From positions 1-51,772 of the IMG/VR virus record IMGVR_UViG_3300045996_001760: a DNA stretch of 51,772 bases. The stretch is one strand, 5' to 3'. Under the pieces are notes generated by a model that was not told where the DNA came from, made no database searches, and saw nothing but the letters and a program-made list of their open reading frames with translations. Made by a program: the position numbers and the translations under genes. The first letter of the stretch is position 1, and the number at the start of each line of letters is the position of its first letter. The stretch is from a virus. This document shows, one piece after another, positions 2,873-50,934 of this stretch.

Positions 2873-4030
2873 TTACTTTCTCCCCGCGGTGTGAAGGGTT
2901 CGTGCCTTGGCGCGTTGCTGCGCGATATAGGCGTCGGGGTTGCTCTCCGCGGTGACTTCGCGGGCGTCCTCGCGGGCGTGGCTGCCCCCGCCGGTAAGAC
3001 CCGCGGTGATCGCGTCTTGGCGGTCGCTGCCCTCGGCGGCAGGCTTCACCTTGACGGACTCACACGCGAGGTCGAAACGGACGTCCACGTAGGCGTCCGG
3101 CTTGCCAGCGAGCGGTACGTTTGCGTCCAGCTTCAGGATCGCGCGCTCTTTGATCTGGCGGTCGGTTTCGTCCGCTTTGAACGTGGCTTCCGCGCCCAGC
3201 ACGGTCTTGGCCGAAGCCTCGAGTGCAGCGCGTGCGGCCTTGGCCGCGTCCGCGCGGAACGTCGCAAGCTCGGTGTCTGCCTTGTCCGCGCGGGCCTTTT
3301 CCTTGTCGCGTTCGCTCGTAAGCGAGGCGATCTGCGCGTCGCGCGTGGCGTCGATCCGGGCCTGAGCAGTCAAGTGCTCCGCTGAACCCGCCTCGACTTC
3401 GACGTCCTTGCCGTCCAGTCTCAGAGTGATTTTCATTTTTGGTGTCTTCTCTTCCGCGGGTTCGCGGTGTTCGTTGCCGGCTGCGTCCAATCGCAACCCA
3501 ACACTTTCGCCTTGGCGGCCCTGGCCCCGACCGATCAACGCAATGTGGTTGTAACGGATGTTCCGTTGCACCTGGTCATAGCGGCCGTATACGGGGTGGG
3601 TCCCCGGTGTGGGGTCAATGTCCACGTGATAGCCTGGCGATATATCGCGCAGGGCTTCGCGGTCTGCGTCCTCGCGCGCGATGCGCGCCTGCGCGTCTTG
3701 GCGCGAAACGATCAGCGTTGCGGCTACGCCGTTCGTGGCCTCGTCTTTGCGCAGCTGGCCGCGCACGTGGCCTACGCTTTCGCTCGCCCAGTTGGCGGGG
3801 CTCACCCCGCCCGGCGGGTGGCCGATCGTAACGGGCACGTCACCCAGTGAAGCGACCGACTCTGGAGAGTGGACTTCTTCTGGGGGCCTGAGTTCGAGGA
3901 TTTCGCGGCCGGTGTCGGTGCGATACTTGAAGACGCCCGCACGCGTCAGAACAGCCGGGATAGCCACCCCGCCGTTGCCGGTTCGCTCGAACTTATCGAG
4001 CCTGACAGTATCCGTGCGGAAAACGCCCAT
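2873..4030 (-). CDS. DUF2213 capsid maturation protease/scaffold fusion
   Basis: 385 residues, ATG at 4030. The N-terminal half (about 1-185) matches DUF2213: EEVHSPESVASLGDVPVTIGHPP, RGQLRKDEA, and DISPGYHVDIDPTPG, the arrangement of phage prohead proteases. The C-terminal half is highly charged and predicted coiled coil (Ala/Lys/Asp/Glu-rich, about 220-300), as in scaffolding proteins. It would assemble the prohead with the capsid protein and be cleaved during maturation. A TGGGTC-N6-GACCCAGG box lies 28 bases upstream of the start. Confidence 0.85.
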   Translation of the reverse strand: MGVFRTDTVRLDKFERTGNGGVAIPAVLTRAGVFKYRTDTGREILELRPPEEVHSPESVASLGDVPVTIGHPPGGVSPANWASESVGHVRGQLRKDEATNGVAATLIVSRQDAQARIAREDADREALRDISPGYHVDIDPTPGTHPVYGRYDQVQRNIRYNHIALIGRGQGRQGESVGLRLDAAGNEHREPAEEKTPKMKITLRLDGKDVEVEAGSAEHLTAQARIDATRDAQIASLTSERDKEKARADKADTELATFRADAAKAARAALEASAKTVLGAEATFKADETDRQIKERAILKLDANVPLAGKPDAYVDVRFDLACESVKVKPAAEGSDRQDAITAGLTGGGSHAREDAREVTAESNPDAYIAQQRAKARTLHTAGRK

Positions 4031-14644: not shown

Positions 14645-14810
14645 CGTCTTCGTCTTCCGTGGGGGTATATAGCACGTCCTCGTCGGACCATAGCTCACCT
14701 TCGCCGCCGAGCTCGCGCCGGCGGGTCTCACGCAGAGGGCCGCGCGCTAGGTCTTTCTCCTCGAAGAAGTTCGGCCCCGAGGGCGGGGCCTTGCGGCGGC
14801 GCCTGGTCAC
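14637..14810 (-). CDS. Small charged protein
   Basis: 57 residues, GTG in GTGA overlap. Basic N-terminus (TRRRRKAPP) and acidic C-terminus (SDEDVLYTPTEDEDD). No fold evident. Confidence 0.55.
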   Translation of the reverse strand: MTRRRRKAPPSGPNFFEEKDLARGPLRETRRRELGGEGELWSDEDVLYTPTEDEDDA

Positions 14811-15022
14811 AGGAAACCCCCTCGCTTCCACTCGAGTACTTCTTGATACAGTTTCACCGCCTCGTGCACGGGGACGTCTAAGCCCTTCGCACGTGCGTAG
14901 GCGATGGCCGACCAGCGCAGGTGCGACCCATGGCGGCGGCGCTTGTTCTTCCACGGATCGACCTTGATCCAGCCCCACGCGTTGGACTGACCCAGGTACC
15001 AGATCTGCACTTGCACAGTCAT
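14807..15022 (-). CDS. Hypothetical protein
   Basis: 71 residues, ATG in ATGA overlap. Starts VQVQIWYLGQSNAWGW, then a basic KNKRRRHG and helices SAIAYARAKGL and AVKLYQEVLEW. The IWxxGQSNAWG segment is strikingly like the active-site segment of the virion esterase at 48420-49976, but the rest does not match. Confidence 0.65.
   Translation of the reverse strand: MTVQVQIWYLGQSNAWGWIKVDPWKNKRRRHGSHLRWSAIAYARAKGLDVPVHEAVKLYQEVLEWKRGGFL

Positions 15023-27313: not shown

Positions 27314-27320
<7 letters not shown>
27015..27320 (+). CDS. Hypothetical protein
   Basis: 101 residues, GTG in GTGA overlap. N-terminal basic helical part (YRRLIRTPRQGLRESLEAYSKR), a hydrophobic stretch (FPLVLVARCAIGLCAVAPGVVV, about 65-86) that could be one membrane helix, and an acidic tail (ILEREEEIQ). 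Overlaps the next gene by 7 bases. Confidence 0.6.
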
Positions 27321-28287
<967 letters not shown>

Positions 28288-28294
<7 letters not shown>

Positions 28295-28421: not shown

Positions 28422-29483
28422 ATGAAGAACCGCCAAGAAGCCAAGCGCCGCAAGAAGCGCGGCCCCGTCAAGGTCGACTTCGAGACCCGTTCGAAGGCGG
28501 ACCTTAAGGCCGTGGCCGGGCGCAAGTACAGCCTTCACCCCACCACGCAGGTTATATGCGCTGTACTCGAGGCGGGCGGTGTACGCGAGCTTTGGCTACC
28601 GGGGGACCCCGTGCCCAAACTGGCCAAGTTGGCGGTAAAGCGTGGGGCCTGCGCGCACAACGGCATATCCTTCGACCGTCATATATGGGCCAACACCCTA
28701 GGCTGGCCCGCGCCGGCGCACTGGCACGATACGGCCCAATATGCGCGCCTGGCCGGGTACCCAAAGGCCTCGCTGGACTTCTTGGGCAAAACACTCCTTG
28801 GAATCGACAAGGACAAGGAAGCCAGCAAGCTCACCAAGTCTCTGAGCAAGTGCTACCCGCTAACCACGCGCCGGAAGAACAAGGAGACCGGGGAGTGGTA
28901 CAAGCACCCCCACGCCATGGCTGGCCAGTGGCGTCTGGACCCGATACCCGAGGACGTCCTCGAGCGGGTCATTCGCTACTGCCAACTCGACGTCAAGATC
29001 CTGTCCGGCATATGGCCACTGCTCAAGGAGTATTCCTGTCTTGATCGCGAGGTCCGCGAGGTGGATCGGATCGTGATTGATCGCGGCATCGGCTTTGACG
29101 CTGAACTGGCCGAGTCCTTGATCGACGCCTCGCTGTGGTTCGCAGACAGAGAGCAGCGGGCCGCGGGTGTGGACGCGGCCTTGTGTCGGTCCGTGCCGAA
29201 GTTCTTAGCCGAGCTACGCAAAGCCCTAGGCGAGTTGGCCAGCTGCGCGGTGAATGCCAAGAAACCCACGCTAGAGGCCCTCCTCGATATGCGCGGGGTA
29301 TCGCCCTACGCGCGGGCACTGATAGACGCGCGCATCGGTACCAACACGATCGCGGCGGGGAAGCTGGCCGCGGGGCTGCGCAAACAGATCAAGGGCAGGC
29401 TACACGATGAACTCAAGTACGCGGGCGCGCGGACGTGGCGCTGGACCGGCGAAGGTATGCAACTTCAGAACTTGACCAAATGA
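28422..29483 (+). CDS. DNA polymerase family A, part 1 (3'-5' exonuclease and thumb)
   Basis: 353 residues. DnaQ-like exonuclease motifs: Exo I VDFETRS (D19, E21), Exo II CAHNGISFD (N80, D85), Exo III YCQLD (Y186, D190). Then helical thumb (about 200-330) and the start of the polymerase core: KYAGARTWRWTGEGMQLQN, matching the 'GA.TGRWSG.G.QPQN' segment that precedes motif A in phage PolA enzymes (TGRW reads TWRW here). The frame stops with TGA at 29481 inside ATGA. The rest of the polymerase follows in the -1 frame. The two halves must act together unless one is inactive. Confidence 0.88.
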   Translation: MKNRQEAKRRKKRGPVKVDFETRSKADLKAVAGRKYSLHPTTQVICAVLEAGGVRELWLPGDPVPKLAKLAVKRGACAHNGISFDRHIWANTLGWPAPAHWHDTAQYARLAGYPKASLDFLGKTLLGIDKDKEASKLTKSLSKCYPLTTRRKNKETGEWYKHPHAMAGQWRLDPIPEDVLERVIRYCQLDVKILSGIWPLLKEYSCLDREVREVDRIVIDRGIGFDAELAESLIDASLWFADREQRAAGVDAALCRSVPKFLAELRKALGELASCAVNAKKPTLEALLDMRGVSPYARALIDARIGTNTIAAGKLAAGLRKQIKGRLHDELKYAGARTWRWTGEGMQLQNLTK

Positions 29484-30463
29484 CCCTCGCTCAATTCGTC
29501 CCAGGCTACGATCCGAAGTCCAAGGACTGGTCACACCACGATTGGTCACGCGAAGAAGCTCGCGCGCGCATCCTGCGCGGCCAGACCAAGGGCCTCGATC
29601 CGTCCGTGATCAACGCGCTCACCCGCGCGTGCCTCAAGGCTAAGGACGGCTACACGTTCACGATCGTTGACTACGCCGCGATCGAAGCTCGGGTGAATGC
29701 GTGGGGTGCGGCTGATATGGCTGCCCTTGAGCTTTTCCGTAACGGCGGGGATCCGTACGCAACCCTTGCTGGGCGCTTGTTCGGTGTGCCCGCCGAGACT
29801 TGCCAGAAGGGCGGAGAGAACGAGAAATGGCGTCAGCTGGGCAAAATTGGAGAGCTCGGCCTCGGCTACGGCATGGGCAAGGACCTATTCCACGTCACTG
29901 CAGAGAAGGGCGGGACGAATTGGGAGGACATCGCGCCACTTGATGCGGAAACCTGCGTCGAGATCTGGCGCGGGCTTCATCGCCCGATCGTCAGCTTCTG
30001 GTACCAGCTCCAAGATGCAGCGGCCCAGGCCAGCGAAGGCGGGGAGGCACGTGTAGGGCCTACCGAGTGGTTCCGCCGCGGTGATGCGGTGTGGTGCTGG
30101 CTTCAGTCCGATCGGCCGATCGTGTATCACGGGATGCATCTTCGCCAGGAGAAGGGCGAGCGCAGGCCGGGCCTGGTATACAAGACGATCAAGGGCCTAG
30201 AGCGGACGTGGGGCGGAAAGCTTTGCGAGAATGTAGTCCAGGCCCTGAGCCGGGACGTGATGGCAGAGGGCCTGGTCAAGTGTGAGCGCGCGGGCTTGCG
30301 GCCTGTGTTGCACGTGCACGACGAAATCGTGTGCGAGGTCAAGAAGCGGGACGCACGGGACGCGTTGGAGCTCCAAGAATACCTTATGTGTGAGATCCCG
30401 ACCTGGGCCAAGGGCCTGCCGATCAATGTCGAAGGCTTCATTGCCGCCCGTTACCGAAAGTGA
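29480..30463 (+). CDS. DNA polymerase family A, part 2 (palm and fingers)
   Basis: 327 residues from the ATG of an ATGA overlap with part 1. Motif A VDYAAIEAR (D64, E69), motif B KWRQLGKIGELGLGYGMG (R117, K121, Y129), motif C HVHDEIV (H279, D280, E281): all catalytic residues of a family A polymerase are present. Nothing seems lost between the halves, as the QN-to-motif A spacing (about 60 residues) is normal. Whether it is translated by stop-start coupling, by -1 frameshifting, or is a base-calling error in a single gene cannot be settled from sequence. Confidence 0.88.
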   Translation: MTLAQFVPGYDPKSKDWSHHDWSREEARARILRGQTKGLDPSVINALTRACLKAKDGYTFTIVDYAAIEARVNAWGAADMAALELFRNGGDPYATLAGRLFGVPAETCQKGGENEKWRQLGKIGELGLGYGMGKDLFHVTAEKGGTNWEDIAPLDAETCVEIWRGLHRPIVSFWYQLQDAAAQASEGGEARVGPTEWFRRGDAVWCWLQSDRPIVYHGMHLRQEKGERRPGLVYKTIKGLERTWGGKLCENVVQALSRDVMAEGLVKCERAGLRPVLHVHDEIVCEVKKRDARDALELQEYLMCEIPTWAKGLPINVEGFIAARYRK

Positions 30464-30519: not shown

Positions 30520-30936
30520 ATGATGAAAGTCGTATATGTCGCAGGTCCGTTCACAGGCCCCACCCCATGGCACGTCGAGCAGAATGTCCGCCGCGCCGAG
30601 CTGGTAGGCCGTTGCGTGGCCGAGGCAGGCGCTAGCCCTCTGATGCCGCACGCGAACACGCGTTTCTTCACGGGCATTCAAACACCTCAGTTTTGGTACG
30701 ACGCGACGATCGCGCTACTGGCCAAGTCGGACGGCCTGGTTCTGATCCCTGGGTACCGAAAGAGCCAAGGCACTTTGGTAGAGCTGGCTTGGGCGCGTCA
30801 GAACGGCCTGCCCGTGTTCACCGCGGCGTTTCACGGCGATATGTCCGTAGGCACCATGCACGCGACGATCGGGGTTTGCGACCACATTGTTGGCCACCTG
30901 CACGGGCTCGCCTTTCAGGATTGGGTGACGCGATGA
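30520..30936 (+). CDS. DUF4406 / nucleoside 2-deoxyribosyltransferase-like protein
   Basis: 138 residues. The start is taken as the ATG at 30520 because AAGGAGACCAGGAGA precedes it; a GTG at 30460 in GTGA overlap is possible but lacks a site. VVYVAGPFTGPTPWHVEQNVRRAE, then ASPLMPHANTRFF, DGLVLIPGYRKSQGT, and ELAWARQNGLPVF are the signature of DUF4406, a Rossmann-like family near nucleoside deoxyribosyltransferases. It may salvage or modify deoxynucleosides. Confidence 0.82.
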   Translation: MMKVVYVAGPFTGPTPWHVEQNVRRAELVGRCVAEAGASPLMPHANTRFFTGIQTPQFWYDATIALLAKSDGLVLIPGYRKSQGTLVELAWARQNGLPVFTAAFHGDMSVGTMHATIGVCDHIVGHLHGLAFQDWVTR

Positions 30937-31625
30937 CCCAGGAAGAACGCGAGCGCGATACGTTGCCGGAGTTTCACGCCGAACTCGATATGAACGCGCG
31001 CCGGTTTTCTGCGACCTTGATCGTATCGGCGGTGTATATCGTGCTTCTACTCGGCGCTGCCTTCGCTTTGACCAAGTGCACGCCCCCGCCGGTAGCCCCG
31101 CCGCAAGGTAACCCAGCGGGTGAGCTGGCCAGCATCGTAATCATGCGGACGTTCGTGGATTGGGAGCCGACCGACCCTGAGCTCGAACGCTTCCCTTGGT
31201 GCGGTGGCGTGGCCGTTGGCCCGAACACGATCGTAACCGTTGCTCACTGTGTCTCCGGCGGGCGCGTGGACTACGTCACGCGCGATGTCTGGTTTCGCAC
31301 AGCACGCGGCGCCGCGCGCGGGCGAGTGACCTACGTGGACAAGGCCCGCGACTACGCCGAGATCACCACCCCGCGGAAGCTCGATCGGTGGGTTCAATGG
31401 GCCGAGTCTTTCACCGCGCAAGGTGCGGTGCGTATCGTTCGGTTCGAGCCCTCGCGCGTGCGGGTGGACGAGGGTGCTCGATCGTACCTGAGCGGCGGAG
31501 CTAAATTTGATTCAGGCGCTGGCGTCTTCTCGGACGAGGGGAGACTTTTGGGCTTGGTGGCCACCTGCTACACAGACGGAGCTGGGGAGTGCAACGGGCG
31601 CGGCGGGCGACTGGTGCGCCCGTGA
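30933..31625 (+). CDS. Membrane-anchored trypsin-like serine protease
   Basis: 230 residues, ATG in ATGA overlap. A charged N-terminus (1-24), one membrane helix (about 26-46), a Pro-rich linker (CTPPPVAPPQG), then a chymotrypsin-fold domain: WCGGVAVGPNTIVTVAHC with His105 and the Cys90-Cys106 pair typical of trypsins, ARDYAEIT with Asp140, and FDSGAGVF with Ser194, followed by GLVATCY. All three catalytic residues are present in order. The oxyanion motif GDSGG reads FDSGA. Arg before the helix suggests N-in/C-out, placing the protease in the periplasm. It is between DUF4406 and a RuvC-like gene. Role unknown. Confidence 0.85.
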   Translation: MTQEERERDTLPEFHAELDMNARRFSATLIVSAVYIVLLLGAAFALTKCTPPPVAPPQGNPAGELASIVIMRTFVDWEPTDPELERFPWCGGVAVGPNTIVTVAHCVSGGRVDYVTRDVWFRTARGAARGRVTYVDKARDYAEITTPRKLDRWVQWAESFTAQGAVRIVRFEPSRVRVDEGARSYLSGGAKFDSGAGVFSDEGRLLGLVATCYTDGAGECNGRGGRLVRP

Positions 31626-32194
31626 AGGTGCTTCGCGCGATCGACCCTGCGGTGGACCTCGCTTACTGCGCGGACTTCGACTTGTCCACACATAGCCTCG
31701 TGCAAACTGAGACGGAGGATCGGGCCTTCTCGCCCAGTGATTCCCTTCTGCAGTATGGGCGGGTTTACGCGCTCGTGGTCGAACGGCCGCTGATCCGCCC
31801 GCGCTCCAAGGTGAAGCCGAACGATATCGTTGACCTTGCCTGGTGCGCCGCGATCATGTTTGAGCGTTTCCGCCCGAAGAACCTGGACGCCGCGCGCTAT
31901 TACAAGCCCGAGGAGTGGAAAGGCCAGCTTCCGAAGCCGGCCCACCACTTGTTGACGCTGGACGAACTGACCCGGGCCGAGCTCGGATTATTGCCCCTGG
32001 ACGTGCGCCGGGTAGTAGAACTCGCAGCGAACAAGGGCGCGCGGGACGGCTGGAAGCCCGGCAAGAATTATTACCGCGAGAAAGACACGGTGCACAACAC
32101 ACTCGACGCGGTGGCCTTGGGCCTTACCGCGCTGGGGCGTTTGCCGTTCCCTCGGGGGCGTCGTGCAAAATCGCTACCGTCCCTCCTGGTGTGA
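31622..32194 (+). CDS. RuvC-like Holliday junction resolvase
   Basis: 190 residues, GTG in GTGA overlap. VLRAIDPA (D8), YALVVERP (E54), DLAWCAAIMFE, PEEWKGQLPK, and HNTLDAVALGLTAL (D162) match the RNase H-fold RuvC-type resolvases of phages, including the conserved WKG.PK segment. It would cut branched DNA before packaging, which fits the recombination genes around it. Confidence 0.8.
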   Translation: MKVLRAIDPAVDLAYCADFDLSTHSLVQTETEDRAFSPSDSLLQYGRVYALVVERPLIRPRSKVKPNDIVDLAWCAAIMFERFRPKNLDAARYYKPEEWKGQLPKPAHHLLTLDELTRAELGLLPLDVRRVVELAANKGARDGWKPGKNYYREKDTVHNTLDAVALGLTALGRLPFPRGRRAKSLPSLLV

Positions 32195-32948
32195 GTGCTG
32201 CTGTTTCTTCCTATGGGTGCACAGCCGATCGGGGCTGTGCGCCTTCTGTCGGAACGAGTCCGCCGTTACCGAGGATACCTATATGCAATCGAAAGCCATC
32301 GTAGTTCAGAAACCCGCCGAGCTTCAGACCGGCAAGAAAACACTTCTAACCCTATACGTTGACACCTCGATCCTGGAATCCACCGAGACCGAGGCCGCGG
32401 ACGAGCTCAAGGAGGTCACCTCGACGGACGTGGACGCGGTGACCGTCGAGGTGTTCGCAGAGCGGGCGCGCGAGGTTGCGCGCGATTGGGACAGGATCGA
32501 GGGCATGCGCCTCGCCGCGGTCGAACCGCTGAACGCGGAGAAGACGCGCGTACAAGCCTTGTTCAAGCCTGCGCTACAGGCCTTGGACACCCTCAAACGC
32601 GCGCTAGCAGGTAAGGTCGGGGCCTACCAGCTCAAACAAGACGAGGAGCGACGCGCGCTCGAAGCCGAAGCGGCGAAGGCCGCGAGGAAGCGCGACCAGA
32701 AGGCTTTGACCGAGGCGATCACCAAGGCCGAGTCCGCGGGCCCCGTCAAACTCGCCGGGTCGGGTACGCGCTTCGCTTGGCGCGTGGCCAACGTGGACCC
32801 AGCGAAACTCCCCGAGGAGTACTTCAAGCGTGTTGTAGACGAGGACAAGGTCCAGGCCTTGGTCAAGGGCCTCAAGGGTGACGCGCAGCCCAAGAAAGTC
32901 CCCGGTGTCACGTTCGAACGCGTGGCCGTTACCTCGGTCAAGCGCTAA
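32163..32948 (+). CDS. Coiled-coil recombination-region protein, possible zinc-ribbon N-terminus
   Basis: Main domain from the ATG at 32283 (222 residues): SKAIVVQKPAEL, an acidic helical part, a long coiled coil (about 70-160), and a C-terminal TRFAWRVANVDPAKLPEEYF...KVPGVTFERVAV. The 'W.v.nvd.lP.ey...PGv.fe' ending is a family common in phage recombination modules, function unknown. The frame is open back to GTG 32163, adding WCECCCFFLW...LCAFCRNE, a zinc-ribbon-like segment that would overlap the RuvC-like gene by 32 bases. Which start is used is uncertain. GAGG before 32283 favours the short form. Confidence 0.7.
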   Translation: MQNRYRPSWCECCCFFLWVHSRSGLCAFCRNESAVTEDTYMQSKAIVVQKPAELQTGKKTLLTLYVDTSILESTETEAADELKEVTSTDVDAVTVEVFAERAREVARDWDRIEGMRLAAVEPLNAEKTRVQALFKPALQALDTLKRALAGKVGAYQLKQDEERRALEAEAAKAARKRDQKALTEAITKAESAGPVKLAGSGTRFAWRVANVDPAKLPEEYFKRVVDEDKVQALVKGLKGDAQPKKVPGVTFERVAVTSVKR

Positions 32949-32961
32949 CCTAAAGGACCCA

Positions 32962-34146
32962 ATGAGCCGAAATAGACCCTGTGAAAGTACCCGCACGTAC
33001 AAGGACAAGCGCAACGCCCGCGAGCGCGAAGCCAGGCTGAACAAGAAGCTTGGCTTGCCGGTGGGCCAGCGCCTGCGCGGGGTCTCTACCTTGGTTGACG
33101 AGGACGGAAGCACCCTCAAGGAGTGGCGCAAGACGGAGCGCAAGCCAAACGAACCACCTGCGCGTCCGGTCGTTCCAGAGGGACACCATGTTCGCCGCTC
33201 GGCCACCATGTTGGACCGTCAGGGCAAGGCCCTGGTCCAGTGGGTGTCTACCGAGGCCGACAAGGAGGCGCGAGATCAGGGTTGGCTGGACGCAATGCGC
33301 GCGCTGGCCCGTAAACACTCGGGCGCAGCGAAACCAGCGCCCTCCCCTAAGTTCGTGGCGCATGATTGGCTTAGCGCGTACCCGATCGGTGACGCGCACT
33401 TAGGGCTTCTGGCGCACGAGTCCGAGGTGGGCGAAAATCACGACTTATCGATCGGCGCGCGGGACTTGCTCACCGCGTTTGACTTACTAGTGGCCGCGGC
33501 GCAGCCCTCGTCCAGGGCCCTAGTGATTGACGTGGGCGACTACTGGCACGCACAAGATAACCAGCAACGCACCCCGGGCCACGGCCATAAGCTGGACGTG
33601 GACGGGCGCGCGGGGAAGGTCTGGCGCAAGGGCATGGCGGTGGCCCGCGGCATTGTTGACCGTTTGCTAACGAAGCACGAAACCGTCGAGTTTTGGGCCG
33701 TGCAAGGGAACCACGATCCGGACCTCGCGATCATGCTCGGTATATGGCTCGAGGCCTGGTATAGGGACGAACCACGCGTGATCGTCTCCCCGCCCGAAAA
33801 CCCTCACCATATGGTGGAGTTTGGGGTCAACATGATCGTTTCGACTCACGGCCACAGTTTGAAACGGGATCAAGTCTCGGGCTTCTCGTCCGCCTTCTGG
33901 CCTGAGGTGTGGGGTAGGACCAAGTGCCGGCGCGCTTTCACCGGGCACATACACCATGAGACCCACAAGGAATACCACGGAATGACGGTTGAGTCGGCCA
34001 ACACGATCGCGGGGCGTGACGCGTACACACACGCGGGTGGGTATATGAGTGAACGCGCGCTCGAGGTGGTCGGCTTCCACCGCGCGCTGGGCCTCAAGTC
34101 CCGCGGGCGCGTGGAACTGTCGGAAATCCGCGAGGCGCAGAAATGA
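32962..34146 (+). CDS. Metallophosphoesterase with duplicated N-terminal unit
   Basis: 394 residues, ATG at 32962 with AAAGGA upstream. Calcineurin-like phosphoesterase motifs: GDAHLG (D144, H146), VIDVGDYWH (D193), VQGNHD (N250, H251), STHGHS (H296) and FTGHIHHE (H329/H331). Such phage enzymes are DNA nucleases or phosphatases (SbcD/Mre11-like superfamily). Residues 35-100 contain two similar units, RGVSTLVDEDGSTLKEW and RRSATMLDRQGKALVQW, perhaps a DNA-binding pair. Coupled by ATGA to the methyltransferase. Confidence 0.85.
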   Translation: MSRNRPCESTRTYKDKRNAREREARLNKKLGLPVGQRLRGVSTLVDEDGSTLKEWRKTERKPNEPPARPVVPEGHHVRRSATMLDRQGKALVQWVSTEADKEARDQGWLDAMRALARKHSGAAKPAPSPKFVAHDWLSAYPIGDAHLGLLAHESEVGENHDLSIGARDLLTAFDLLVAAAQPSSRALVIDVGDYWHAQDNQQRTPGHGHKLDVDGRAGKVWRKGMAVARGIVDRLLTKHETVEFWAVQGNHDPDLAIMLGIWLEAWYRDEPRVIVSPPENPHHMVEFGVNMIVSTHGHSLKRDQVSGFSSAFWPEVWGRTKCRRAFTGHIHHETHKEYHGMTVESANTIAGRDAYTHAGGYMSERALEVVGFHRALGLKSRGRVELSEIREAQK

Positions 34147-46711: not shown

Positions 46712-48355
46712 TTACACCGTTGCCGTTACGTTGACCGGGTCCACCAAGTGGATCGCGCCGGCCAATCGGAAAGAGATTGTGATGTCTCGCAGCACGCGCG
46801 CCGCGCGATCGATTTCGTCCGTGTCGGCCAAGGTCGGGACCTGGACCGAGGGCTCGTTCCCGTCCGCGTCGGTGGCTGCAATGCCGCCCGTCTTGCGGCC
46901 GGCTTTGAGCTGCGCGCGACACGCGGCCTCGTACAAGGCCAGGCCGGTCTCGTCGAAGGGAACGATTTCGTTGTCCAGCTGGACCGTTGCCAGGCGTTCC
47001 TGCAAGCGCACGCGGAACCAATCCAGGAACCGCACCACATCCGCATACTCGCCCGAGGCCGTCTTACCCCCGAGGGTGTGCGAGCGAGTCTTGGACGTGG
47101 TGATGTAGGGCTGAAGGTTGTAGCCCACGATCGCGGTCTTCTCGCTCGAGGTGAGCACGTCCGCGATCTGGCCGCGGAGTTGCTTTGCGTGCCACGTCCC
47201 GCCGTACCCACGCGAGCCCGGGTCATGTGGGAAGCGCTCGGCGCACATACGGACGCCGCCGTACGCGCCGGTGTCGTTGCCGTTGAAAATGCCGATGCTT
47301 CGGGCGTAGCCCTTGCCCTTGAGGATCTGGCCGATGTTCGTGGTTTGGCCCGCGACGCAGTCGCGCCAGCTGGACGTGTTGTAGCCGAAGATCAGCAACT
47401 GGGTTTCGGCCCAGTCCGCGGCCTCTTCCGTGATCAGCGCGGCATTGTGCCAGATCGCGAGGCCGTACCAGTCATCATCTAACACACGCAGCGCCGCGAG
47501 GTCCGCCGTGATACCGGGGTCCGCGGTGACGTCCTCGAACTTGATACGATCCCGCCGCCAATTCTTCACGAAGAACAGCCGGCCGCTTGTCGACTTGATA
47601 TCGATGTATGTTGCCGTGGCGTTGTCCGGGGTGACCGTGACACCGGGGAAGCCCGCTGCGAGGATCGCGGCTTGCAGTCCGTCGCAAATCTCGTCCACCG
47701 TCGCGCTTGCATCACTCGTGTAGCTGATCGCGGCGGTTTTGCCCTTGGTGTAGCCGGTGAAGGCGTACTCAACTTGATTCACCACGATGGGCGTCAAGCG
47801 CAGGGTCTGGCCTGGGGTGTTGTCCACCACGGTCAAGCGCGCGGTGTTCCAGCCCGCGAACTTGAGCACGTTCCCGCCCGTGATCGTCAAGGTCACGTTC
47901 GTGGTGTTGTCCGTAGCTACCACGTGGCTCAGGTTCGCGTTTGCAATGATCGCGGCGCGCAGGCCAGTGCAGATCTCGGCTACCGTCGCGCTACCATCGG
48001 ACGTGTAGCTGATCGACTCCAGGTCGAGGTCGTTCTCCCCGAGCTGAATTGCGTACGCTACGCTGTTCGTAGCGATCGGGGTGAGGACGATCGTCTGCAC
48101 TGGGCGCGAGGTGAGCTTACCCAGCTTGATCTTCTTCGGCTTCGGGCGCTGCGCAAAGCCAGCTTGAAGCATCAGATAGACCGGATCGTCGGTCTCGAAG
48201 CCGTCAGCCACCGCCTCGTCCGCGCTCAGGTACTCGCGGATTTCGTCTGCAAACTTGTTGTGGAAAGCAGCGATTAGCAGCGTGCCGAAACCGACTTGCG
48301 AGAGCGCGGCCCCGCCGGTCGAAACCACGATATTTGAGAAGTCGTCAAGGGCCAT
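46712..48355 (-). CDS. Tail sheath protein (DUF3383) with internal duplication
   Basis: 547 residues from the ATG at 48355 (TTGGAGCAA upstream). N-terminus MALDDFSNIVV, then FGTLLIAAF; the C-terminal half has SSWRDCVAGQTTNIGQILKGKG, LTSSEKTAIVGYNLQPYITT and RFLDWFRVRLQERLATVQLDNE, characteristic of DUF3383 contractile sheaths. Residues about 88-181 and 185-281 are two copies of one domain (ISYTSDGSATVAEIC / ISYTSDASATVDEIC, each followed by 'aai..n'), an outer decorated insertion. It contracts to drive the tube through the envelope. Confidence 0.92.
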   Translation of the reverse strand: MALDDFSNIVVSTGGAALSQVGFGTLLIAAFHNKFADEIREYLSADEAVADGFETDDPVYLMLQAGFAQRPKPKKIKLGKLTSRPVQTIVLTPIATNSVAYAIQLGENDLDLESISYTSDGSATVAEICTGLRAAIIANANLSHVVATDNTTNVTLTITGGNVLKFAGWNTARLTVVDNTPGQTLRLTPIVVNQVEYAFTGYTKGKTAAISYTSDASATVDEICDGLQAAILAAGFPGVTVTPDNATATYIDIKSTSGRLFFVKNWRRDRIKFEDVTADPGITADLAALRVLDDDWYGLAIWHNAALITEEAADWAETQLLIFGYNTSSWRDCVAGQTTNIGQILKGKGYARSIGIFNGNDTGAYGGVRMCAERFPHDPGSRGYGGTWHAKQLRGQIADVLTSSEKTAIVGYNLQPYITTSKTRSHTLGGKTASGEYADVVRFLDWFRVRLQERLATVQLDNEIVPFDETGLALYEAACRAQLKAGRKTGGIAATDADGNEPSVQVPTLADTDEIDRAARVLRDITISFRLAGAIHLVDPVNVTATV

Positions 48356-48419: not shown

Positions 48420-49976
48420 TTACGGGATTTGGACTCGGACTTGGCCGGCTAGGACGGTGCCCGTGAGGCCGATCGTGCCGAGCCGGGTCGCGGAATAGAG
48501 CAACGTTCCGCCGCTCGTCAGAGTATGGAAAGCTACGTGTGTGCCTGTGCCTTGGTGGGCTAGCGCGATATCCACGGCGGACGCCATGATGCCAGCCGAG
48601 GACGTGCCGAAGGCGGTGGCCTTGGTTAGGCTAGTGCGCGTGCCCGCTTGCGTGCCCGCGCCTTGCGGGTCACCTGCGTAGTAACTCATGTGTACCGTGG
48701 TGTCCGCGGTATAGGCGGTAGCGCCGAACATCAGGCCCAGCATGCGGTGTACGACGGTGTCGACGAAACCGCCGGCCGCGGCCGTGATCACGAACGCGCC
48801 GATCGCGATCGAGAAGGGCCCCGTCCCGACGTTCACGGGTACGGGCGTGAAGGTGTCGCTTGCGAGTACAACGCCCGCGCCTTCCGTGCCGCTAGTCGTG
48901 ATGCGCGCTTCGACCACGTCAGACCAAGAACCGGTAGGAGTCGGGAATGTCCACGCAGTCAAGTTGCTCACCGCGCGCCCGCTGGGCGTGGACCAGTTGC
49001 TGGTGTTGTTGGTCTTGCTTTGCACCGCGTAGCCGTTGCCGCTGATCGGCACGCCACCGGCTGCATACAAGTGCATATAGTGTGTGGCCGCGGGCGAGTA
49101 TGCGCCCTTGTTCATTTCGTGGTTGATCAGCGAATCTTTCGCCGTCGTTGATAGTGCGCCCATGGGGACTAGCTCCTTTATTGCTTGGACGATCGGCGTA
49201 GCGACGTCGGTGTAGCCTTGTTGTGTGAAGTGCAGATTGTCCGGCTCGATCGAGTATAGGTTCTCGCCCGAGGGGCCGTCTGTGTATACGCGTCGACCGA
49301 GGGGGCCCGTTGCCGGACACCAGATCTCTTGTTGCGCGCGGATCTCAGCTGCCCAATTCGGGGGCGGCCCTGACGTGCCGCTCTGCCAAAAGTTGATTTG
49401 CGACATCACGCAAACTTTGGGGACGGACTGACCTACCAAGGCTTCGAGGTCTGCGTGATGGATCTGCGTGTCCGCTGCCCACGCTGCGACGATCGGCGGA
49501 TAGCCTGACGTGGTAGGCAAGCGCATATCGCTTGTACCTTGGTCGCGCACGTGGACGTGACGGAAGGTAGCGCCCGGGCGGAGTGCTTGCAGCGCGGCCC
49601 AAGCCGCGCGGCTCTGGCCTAGCCAGCTATCTGAGCTCGGGCTCGATACGTTGCCCCATACGTAATCTGTGCCTGGTTTCCACATATATGCATACGTGGA
49701 TCCGCGGCTTAGGTTGATGATTACGACGTCGTAACCCGCTTCGACTAGCAGGCGTCCGATCGTGGCGTCGCTACCGTGCGCAACGTGGCCAGCTCCGCCA
49801 TTTCCGTGCAGGTCGTGGAAAGCGGCCGATGGCGTACCTTCGCCGCCAACAAGCGTAGTGCCTAGGAAGGTGTCCCAATAGGGCACGCTGGCCAACGTGA
49901 TCAACTCGCTTGGGTTAGCCCCCCAGGCGTTGCTTTGGCCAGTATGCCAAATGACTAGAACGGCGTTACGTGCCAT
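48420..49976 (-). CDS. Virion carbohydrate esterase (GQSN / SASA-type) with two tail-fibre repeats
   Basis: 518 residues from the ATG at 49976, one base after the upstream stop. Residues 1-265: SGNH-type domain with HTGQSNAWG (Ser15), INLSRGST, MSQINFW and EPDNLHFTQQG (D246, H249), the features of sialate/acetylxylan O-acetylesterases. Residues about 285-395 and 400-518: two copies of a phage tail-fibre domain (YMHLYAAGGVPISGNGYA..., HMSYYAGDPQGAG...). It would remove acetyl groups from host surface sugar. Placed between neck and sheath, not with the fibres. Confidence 0.8.
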   Translation of the reverse strand: MARNAVLVIWHTGQSNAWGANPSELITLASVPYWDTFLGTTLVGGEGTPSAAFHDLHGNGGAGHVAHGSDATIGRLLVEAGYDVVIINLSRGSTYAYMWKPGTDYVWGNVSSPSSDSWLGQSRAAWAALQALRPGATFRHVHVRDQGTSDMRLPTTSGYPPIVAAWAADTQIHHADLEALVGQSVPKVCVMSQINFWQSGTSGPPPNWAAEIRAQQEIWCPATGPLGRRVYTDGPSGENLYSIEPDNLHFTQQGYTDVATPIVQAIKELVPMGALSTTAKDSLINHEMNKGAYSPAATHYMHLYAAGGVPISGNGYAVQSKTNNTSNWSTPSGRAVSNLTAWTFPTPTGSWSDVVEARITTSGTEGAGVVLASDTFTPVPVNVGTGPFSIAIGAFVITAAAGGFVDTVVHRMLGLMFGATAYTADTTVHMSYYAGDPQGAGTQAGTRTSLTKATAFGTSSAGIMASAVDIALAHQGTGTHVAFHTLTSGGTLLYSATRLGTIGLTGTVLAGQVRVQIP

Positions 49977-49977
49977 A

Positions 49978-50934
49978 TCAAGCCCATTTCGCAACTAGGT
50001 AGTTATACACGCGGGTTAAAGCCGCGGCGTCCAGCTGAGCGCTGAATACTAGGACTTCAGCGATCAGACCGACCCATGGCCCATCAGGAGTGGAATCCGG
50101 CCTGCCACCGATTGAATACCGATCCGGACCTACCCCGGTGGAGTATTGGGGATCAGGCACACCCGCGGGGACAACGGCCGTGCCGTTGTTCTCACGGAAG
50201 TTGACGCCCACGCCCAAGGAGTCCCACGAAATGATCGTCTTCACCCCCGAGGCCGGGACGCCGGTGCGCGCGGCTGTAGTGCCGGCGGCAGGCGCGGTGC
50301 ACGCGTACTCATATTGAGCAACGCCAGGACGGAGGCCCCAGTATCGAGTAGACGAGGATTGCACCGCCGAATTGCCGAGAGCGAAGATGTTGCCGCTCCC
50401 CGTGGCCAAGTCCGCCGAGGCGTACCAGATCACGGTAAAGGGCTTAGCCCCGGGGTTCGGGCAATCGAACGCCGAAATCACAGCGGCTTCAGTGGCGATC
50501 GGCGCATGCCCGATCAGCGTGGGGTGAATACAGGGCTTGCCGTTCCAACCTGTGGCTTCGTATGGGACCGGCGTTCCTGGTGTTAGGTCCACGCCAGTGA
50601 CTCTGTTCTTGTATGCAGTGAGGGTCGCTCCGCTGATCGTCTTAGACCCTGCATCGAGCATATCGATCCAGACCTGCAGGTTCCCTTCGGCCAGCGGCGA
50701 ATATGCCGAGTAGCCACCTGTAACGACAACGTCGAGGGGTTGCGAAACGACGATTAGGCCTTGGGTGTGCGGGGCCACGTCCACGCCAATCGTCTGAGAA
50801 ACGGTTACCGTGTCCGCCGGGGGCTCCGGGTCTGGTGGGTCGGGCGGATCGGGCGTGACGGCCGCGGCGCTGGCAGCTGACAGGTAAAGGCTTCCGACCT
50901 TCACCACGATATTCGAGAAGTCATCTAGTCCCAT
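49978..50934 (-). CDS. LamG-like protein with sheath-type N-terminus
   Basis: 318 residues, ATG in TAATG overlap. Residues 1-11 MGLDDFSNIVV copy the sheath N-terminus (MALDDFSNIVV), followed by a Pro/Asp-rich linker (DPPDPPDPEPP), a short beta domain, and a concanavalin/LamG-like domain (about 80-318): GNLQVWIDMLDAGSKTI, ATGWNGKP, KPFTVIWYA, FRENNGTAVV, YSIGGRPD, GPWVGLIAEVLVFS. Likely a glycan-binding virion protein that docks with sheath subunits through the copied arm. Function inferred. Confidence 0.75.
   Translation of the reverse strand: MGLDDFSNIVVKVGSLYLSAASAAAVTPDPPDPPDPEPPADTVTVSQTIGVDVAPHTQGLIVVSQPLDVVVTGGYSAYSPLAEGNLQVWIDMLDAGSKTISGATLTAYKNRVTGVDLTPGTPVPYEATGWNGKPCIHPTLIGHAPIATEAAVISAFDCPNPGAKPFTVIWYASADLATGSGNIFALGNSAVQSSSTRYWGLRPGVAQYEYACTAPAAGTTAARTGVPASGVKTIISWDSLGVGVNFRENNGTAVVPAGVPDPQYSTGVGPDRYSIGGRPDSTPDGPWVGLIAEVLVFSAQLDAAALTRVYNYLVAKWA

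Follow-up and report, generated by a model that had tools for sequence, protein, structure and literature searches.

The window, by which we mean the whole stretch of DNA that was analysed (51,772 bases, the single virus record IMGVR_UViG_3300045996_001760), carries on its plus strand, at 30933..31625, a real gene for a 230-residue protease (P0001). The protein is a new variant, and a divergent one, within a class of exported phage proteases that is known but uncharacterised. The coordinates and residue numbers given in an initial annotation of this DNA were exact, and the GC content at the three codon positions (0.66/0.54/0.74) is like that of the neighbouring genes. That annotation had proposed a search against S1 family profiles, and the translation indeed matches the S1 family PF00089 (Trypsin) above its cut-off (E 8.1e-7, 29.5 bits, cut-off 20.6). 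It also covers the entire PF13365 (Trypsin_2) profile (3-144), with a score just under the cut-off (25.6 against 27.6 bits), whereas no match was found among the PHROG profiles at 0.01 or in a scan with a defence library. Phage proteases are usually regarded as virion-assembly enzymes; a periplasm-facing protease that is co-expressed with replication would point to an editing of the host envelope during infection. A role as head maturation protease was considered and rejected, as this role is filled by the product of 2873-4030 (phrog_530) and the present protein has no match to a prohead family.

The Pfam matches (residues 88-188 and 92-208), the structure model and the fold search together define a compact chymotrypsin-fold domain at residues 60-230 (31110..31622), which is not followed by a PDZ domain. 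Within this domain the initial annotation had recognized a complete His105-Asp140-Ser194 triad, and this is borne out by hhalign: with a probability of 95% and an E of 3.6e-8, residues 50-230 were aligned to a set of 43 phage proteases such that the three residues are paired with the catalytic H, D and S. The alignment was not picked for the triad; none of 40 shuffled copies exceeded a probability of 4.1%, and in hmmsearch the protein scored 17.7 bits against a best score of 3.3 among 2000 shuffles. Each of the three MAFFT modes, and hhalign too, places His105, which is followed by Cys106 (31245..31250; His57 and Cys58 of trypsin), on the catalytic His. Asp140 (31350..31352; trypsin Asp102) is paired with the catalytic Asp by hhalign, while the MAFFT modes differ; its surrounding KARDYAEITT is like the PARDLAVVTT of P0002, a lipoprotein protease (LIGC) whose gene precedes the replication genes in a polymerase-related phage. 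Ser194 (31512..31514, in FDSGAGVF) is aligned with the catalytic Ser. Several MAFFT runs chose Ser187 (LSGGA) as the nucleophile, but only Ser194 fits the fixed spacing to the following GRLLG strand, and the ungapped spacing in S194-GAGVFSDEG-RLLG is identical to that in S-GGPLLDSDG-CVVG of P0002. His and Ser, whose loss in homologues the initial annotation would have counted as a refutation, are invariant in all 43 relatives, and the catalytic Asp is Asp in 40 of these and Glu in 3. The latter, in which His and Ser are kept, are Rhizobium phage 16-3 p036 (L118) and the proteins of L117 and L119.

The distance from His to Asp is 35 residues. That from Asp to Ser is 54, where three phage relatives have 70-72; compact viral proteases, arterivirus nsp4 and HCV NS3 among them, span a range that includes an Asp-Ser distance of 54. 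A Cys pair at the trypsin position had been noted as well, and the spacing agrees with this: Cys90 (31200..31202) precedes His105 by 15 residues and Cys106 directly follows it, as Cys42 and Cys58 are placed with respect to His57 in trypsin. Cys212 and Cys220 (31566..31592) may form a second disulfide.

AlphaFold modelling from the sequence alone resulted in a pLDDT of 46. A second model was computed with 12 helper sequences and has a pTM of 0.63, with good confidence in the first barrel and a poorly modelled second barrel (pLDDT <50 over much of its length). As the helper alignment (A12) was picked because the triad is aligned in it, this model supports the fold only and is no independent evidence for the triad. 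A fold search of the PDB with the model was led by HtrA1, the trypsin-like domain of IgA1 protease, HtrA2 and PDZ-deleted DegS, with probabilities of about 1.0 and TM scores of just about 0.3-0.5; when viral models were searched, the top matches included trypsin-like proteins from viruses of archaea and bacteria and from giant viruses.

The designation as trypsin-like in the initial annotation holds for the fold but not for several features in which the protein departs from trypsin. The Asp189 specificity position is occupied by Gly188, so that the Lys/Arg specificity of trypsin is not expected, an IVGG zymogen start is absent from the sequence, and HtrA1, HtrA2 and DegS-deltaPDZ are among the best fold matches. 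Also the motif FDSGA in place of GDSGG, which had been pointed out as an oddity, proved to be one, since Phe192 (31506..31508) occupies the position of the oxyanion-hole residue Gly193 that nearly all relatives examined retain: in an alignment of 21 domains it is Phe in this protein, Ala in one other and Gly in all the rest, and it is Gly in 43 of 43 16-3-type proteins. In addition, Ala196 replaces Gly197. With Phe192 in place of the oxyanion-hole glycine, catalytic activity is uncertain.

The N-terminal part consists of an acidic tail of 24 residues (30933..31004) that ends in NARR and is followed by a single hydrophobic segment at residues 25-47 (31005..31073). The best 19-residue stretch is at residues 29-47 (Kyte-Doolittle value 2.49) and no second segment occurs later, which agrees with the single N-terminal membrane helix claimed before. 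According to the positive-inside rule, the NARR before this helix argues for an N-in topology with a cytoplasmic tail, and Cys90 and Cys106 around His105, together with the possible Cys212-Cys220 bridge, suggest that the domain resides in an oxidising compartment. The earlier prediction of a periplasm-facing catalytic domain is thus supported by the single helix and the trypsin-type Cys pair. An AxA motif at residues 43-45 could permit cleavage of the helix as a signal peptide by signal peptidase, and we therefore regard membrane anchoring only as likely. Lipoprotein anchoring at Cys49 is ruled out, as there is no lipobox. Taken together, we are highly confident in the fold and the predicted membrane topology.

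Among known proteins, Fusarium trypsin (1fn8) as an example of the S1A trypsins shares the PWCGG...NT..T.AHCVSG motif and the Cys42/58 pair with the phage protein, but the latter differs by the missing IVGG start, by Gly for Asp189, by Phe for Gly193 and by its short second barrel. DegS likewise has an N-in membrane helix that is followed by a periplasmic chymotrypsin-fold domain, and its PDZ-deleted form was matched in the fold search with a probability of 1.0. Unlike DegS, the phage protein ends 36 residues after Ser194 without a PDZ family match, and it possesses the Cys pair; HtrA and DegS sequence models did not match it. Because it is compact and lacks a PDZ domain, Asp189 and a zymogen start, it is nearer to a PDZ-less DegS/HtrA protease domain than to a true trypsin. 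MarP (NF033740) is also a membrane-anchored periplasmic serine protease, but it has four transmembrane helices instead of one, and its model gave only a weak score (18.7 bits) that did not reach the cut-off of 250. P0004 of IMGVR_UViG_3300006162_000015 (L046:5821-6495) is a protein of 224 residues that also has an N-terminal transmembrane helix, with a PNTIVT.AHCV motif; its gene closes an operon that includes a helicase. P0004 differs by its canonical GMSGGP nucleophile motif, and BLAST aligns the two proteins at the His motif only.

The gene is embedded in a plus-strand block that comprises a primase/helicase (20915), a PD-(D/E)XK nuclease, a helicase, a two-part DNA polymerase, the deoxyribosyltransferase-like gene (30520) and the protease, followed by an unknown gene, two exonuclease-like genes and a methyltransferase. 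The ATG of the protease gene overlaps the upstream stop codon (ATGA) and its own stop codon shares bases with the GTG start that follows (GTGA). These overlaps of four bases each bear out the initial placement in a replication operon with DNA-metabolism genes, and they make it probable that translation is coupled to that of both neighbours. The upstream partner (30520..30936, plus strand) is a nucleoside 2-deoxyribosyltransferase-like gene (phrog_355, E 1e-20; PF14359). The downstream partner (31622..32194, plus strand) has no assigned family, as no profile family or PDB entry was matched; by eye only, its acidic and HNTLDA motifs resemble a RuvC-type resolvase. The family A DNA polymerase of this operon (28422..30463, plus strand; phrog_17 and phrog_10285) is split into two overlapping frames (28422-29483 and 29480-30463) with an ATGA overlap inside a QLQNL motif, while its relative in L005 is a single frame of 658 residues; phrog_10285 (321 residues) looks like a family made up of C-terminal polymerase parts of this kind. 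A further protein of the replication block (27314-28294) has a very long Asp/Glu repeat tail and, by neighbourhood alone, takes the position of a single-strand-binding protein.

The initial annotation had considered a phage protease of this type unusual. This is correct in so far as such genes are rare in phage isolates, where a tblastn search with bovine trypsin clearly found only one phage, but exported proteases of the fold recur in phrog_9683, in Rhizobium phage 16-3 p036 and in 43 viral contigs. These contigs were obtained by a scan with the exported chymotrypsin-fold proteases of Rhizobium phages 16-3 (p036) and RHph_X2_25 (QWY83218) and of Sinorhizobium phage NV1.1.1. The 16-3-type genes lie in temperate phages, between the lysis genes and the early genes. 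Rhodococcus phage Shagrat gp109 is a chymotrypsin-fold protease with a Sec signal; its gene is close to replication genes and adjoins the serine hydrolase gene gp108 (L043 4228-5666). Means of anchoring or export in early-region phage proteases comprise a transmembrane helix (L046), a lipobox (L013) and a signal helix (16-3 type). Matches to phrog_9683, annotated as 'protease', are obtained with 16-3 p036 (E 1e-72), X2_25 (2e-53), P0004 (4e-11), P0002 (1e-8) and Shagrat (5e-5). The present protein, at E 0.41, does not reach this profile, and hmmsearch and hhalign indicate distant homology only. Like proteins of the phrog_9683 phages, which have about 215-300 residues, it combines an N-terminal signal or anchor helix with a compact chymotrypsin-fold domain and has a phrog_704 neighbour on the same strand; unlike them, it possesses the trypsin Cys pair and Phe for Gly193, and its Asp-Ser stretch is 16 residues shorter than in P0006. 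Close relatives were found neither in viral contigs, phage records and genome contigs nor in the 241 and 399 sampled bacterial genomes; each of the latter two sets gave one match at E 1e-5, of about 70-80 residues within frames of 896 and 401 residues, respectively. HtrA matches in 'phage' records of Listeria, Staphylococcus and Acinetobacter were left uncounted, as they may be host sequence. For none of the exported phage proteases of this fold that were compared could an experimentally tested function be found.

The phrog_704 neighbour is a metallophosphoesterase of the 'DNA repair exonuclease' type (32962..34146, plus strand; E 4e-82; tblastn 29-39%), and in the window it forms with the protease a stretch (30933-34146) in which the two genes are 1.3 kb apart. 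A phrog_704-like gene is present on the protease strand in all 46 16-3-type loci (L074-L076, L078-L120). In 43 of them it lies downstream at a distance of no more than 4 kb, in the other 3 it lies upstream, and in 17 of the 46 the match begins less than 700 bases from the protease stop codon. We nevertheless see in the pairing no more than a lead towards a functional module. The exonuclease is widespread, being present in 2035 of 50,697 phage records; no such protease was found near it in four exonuclease-bearing phages that were examined from the exonuclease side; it is absent from two other protease phages; and the copy of the window is deeply separate in the tree and not nested with the protease-linked exonucleases. 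The linked exonucleases come from more than one clade, as if the slot were retained while the gene is exchanged. In Salmonella phage SeF1 (Jerseyvirus; L123 5699-7071), a phrog_704 exonuclease lies beside an 'immunity to superinfection' gene (phrog_1039).

As overall best explanation, to which we hold tentatively and at somewhat less than even confidence, a tethered periplasmic protease is made with the replication genes and cuts a target in the envelope. In a diderm host, one N-terminal helix would tether the protein to the inner membrane, the disulfide-bearing catalytic domain would be located in the periplasm, and since the gene is expressed alongside replication genes, the protease would act in early or mid infection. 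Cleavage of a protein at or near the membrane would then change the envelope of the infected cell. We know of no superinfection exclusion system that uses a protease. The word 'protease' is also absent from a 2024 review on superinfection exclusion (PMC11436027). Exclusion, by destruction of an inner-membrane or periplasmic entry factor or of the ejection protein of an incoming phage, is our first choice of outcome because early periplasmic proteins with such a role exist: T4 Spackle is an early, periplasmic and disulfide-bonded exclusion protein (PMC7677548), as proposed here, but it is a helical lysozyme inhibitor and no protease, so that the likeness is one of role only. A role in exclusion or envelope takeover is possible, if rather doubtful. 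Against the explanation as a whole, the oxyanion hole may be seriously impaired by Phe in place of Gly193, the stretch from Asp140 to Ser194 is short, and the second barrel is poorly modelled. Phe192, Ala196 for Gly197 and the shortened second barrel would fit a chymotrypsin-fold protein of little or no catalytic activity that binds instead of cutting, and replacement of Gly193 strongly lowers activity in thrombin-type enzymes. Human mesotrypsin, in contrast, is active with Arg193, which indicates that a non-glycine residue can be tolerated, and as all three catalytic residues are kept despite a divergence almost beyond the range of BLAST, we consider a mere binding protein improbable.

An envelope target would also be cut if the protein were a PDZ-less, always-on site-1 protease of the DegS type that cleaves a host anti-sigma factor or membrane regulator and thereby switches the envelope-stress response. 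The architecture of DegS without its PDZ domain, the place of DegS-deltaPDZ structures among the best fold matches and the basal activity that DegS retains without PDZ speak for this, but the ranking of the matches depends on a low-confidence model and the sequence is not HtrA-like, which makes this role rather unlikely. The placement in an early operon, and the fact that temperate as well as other phages recurrently carry exported proteases of this fold, would also be compatible with the removal of an envelope-located antiphage protein or the shedding of a phage receptor. As the position between lysis and early genes in the 16-3-type temperate phages does not single out counter-defence, we would not readily expect such a function. 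A helper in lysis or egress that loosens envelope proteins is suggested by endolysin-like and spanin-like genes that in many 16-3-type loci share the strand of the protease and lie some 4.7 kb upstream of it, but in the window the lysis genes are distant and on the other strand, while the protease sits with the replication genes, and we think that this is very unlikely. Returning to the tethered envelope protease, one could speculate that exported PDZ-less chymotrypsin-fold proteases were acquired time and again by unrelated phages, that these enzymes, produced together with the replication genes, cleave an envelope protein for exclusion or a rewiring of signalling and form a class absent from current reviews, and that Phe193 confers resistance to periplasmic protease inhibitors of the host, like Arg193 of mesotrypsin; that both parts should hold jointly appears improbable. 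In this context, Rhizobium phage 16-3 p036 is a tractable member of the class in a long-studied, isolated phage, and the comparative set provides a test bed for function.

The window encodes a terminase, a portal, a head-maturation protease, a major head protein, a tail sheath and a tape measure, which indicates a contractile tail; tRNA genes were not found in it. The relatives of its polymerase and terminase in viral contigs all have less than 40% identity, so that the phage represents an isolated lineage, and two small lipoprotein-like genes (7956 and 17065) suggest a diderm host. On the minus strand, 14807-15022 and 48420-49976 have near-identical starts with an IW..GQSNAWG motif that recalls SGNH hydrolases, and the longer of the two (48420-49976) matches the fibre family Gp80. 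Also on the minus strand, the starts of 46712-48355, which is the tail sheath, and 49978-50934 have an LDDFSNIVV stretch in common, and the latter looks like a diverged or partial duplicate.
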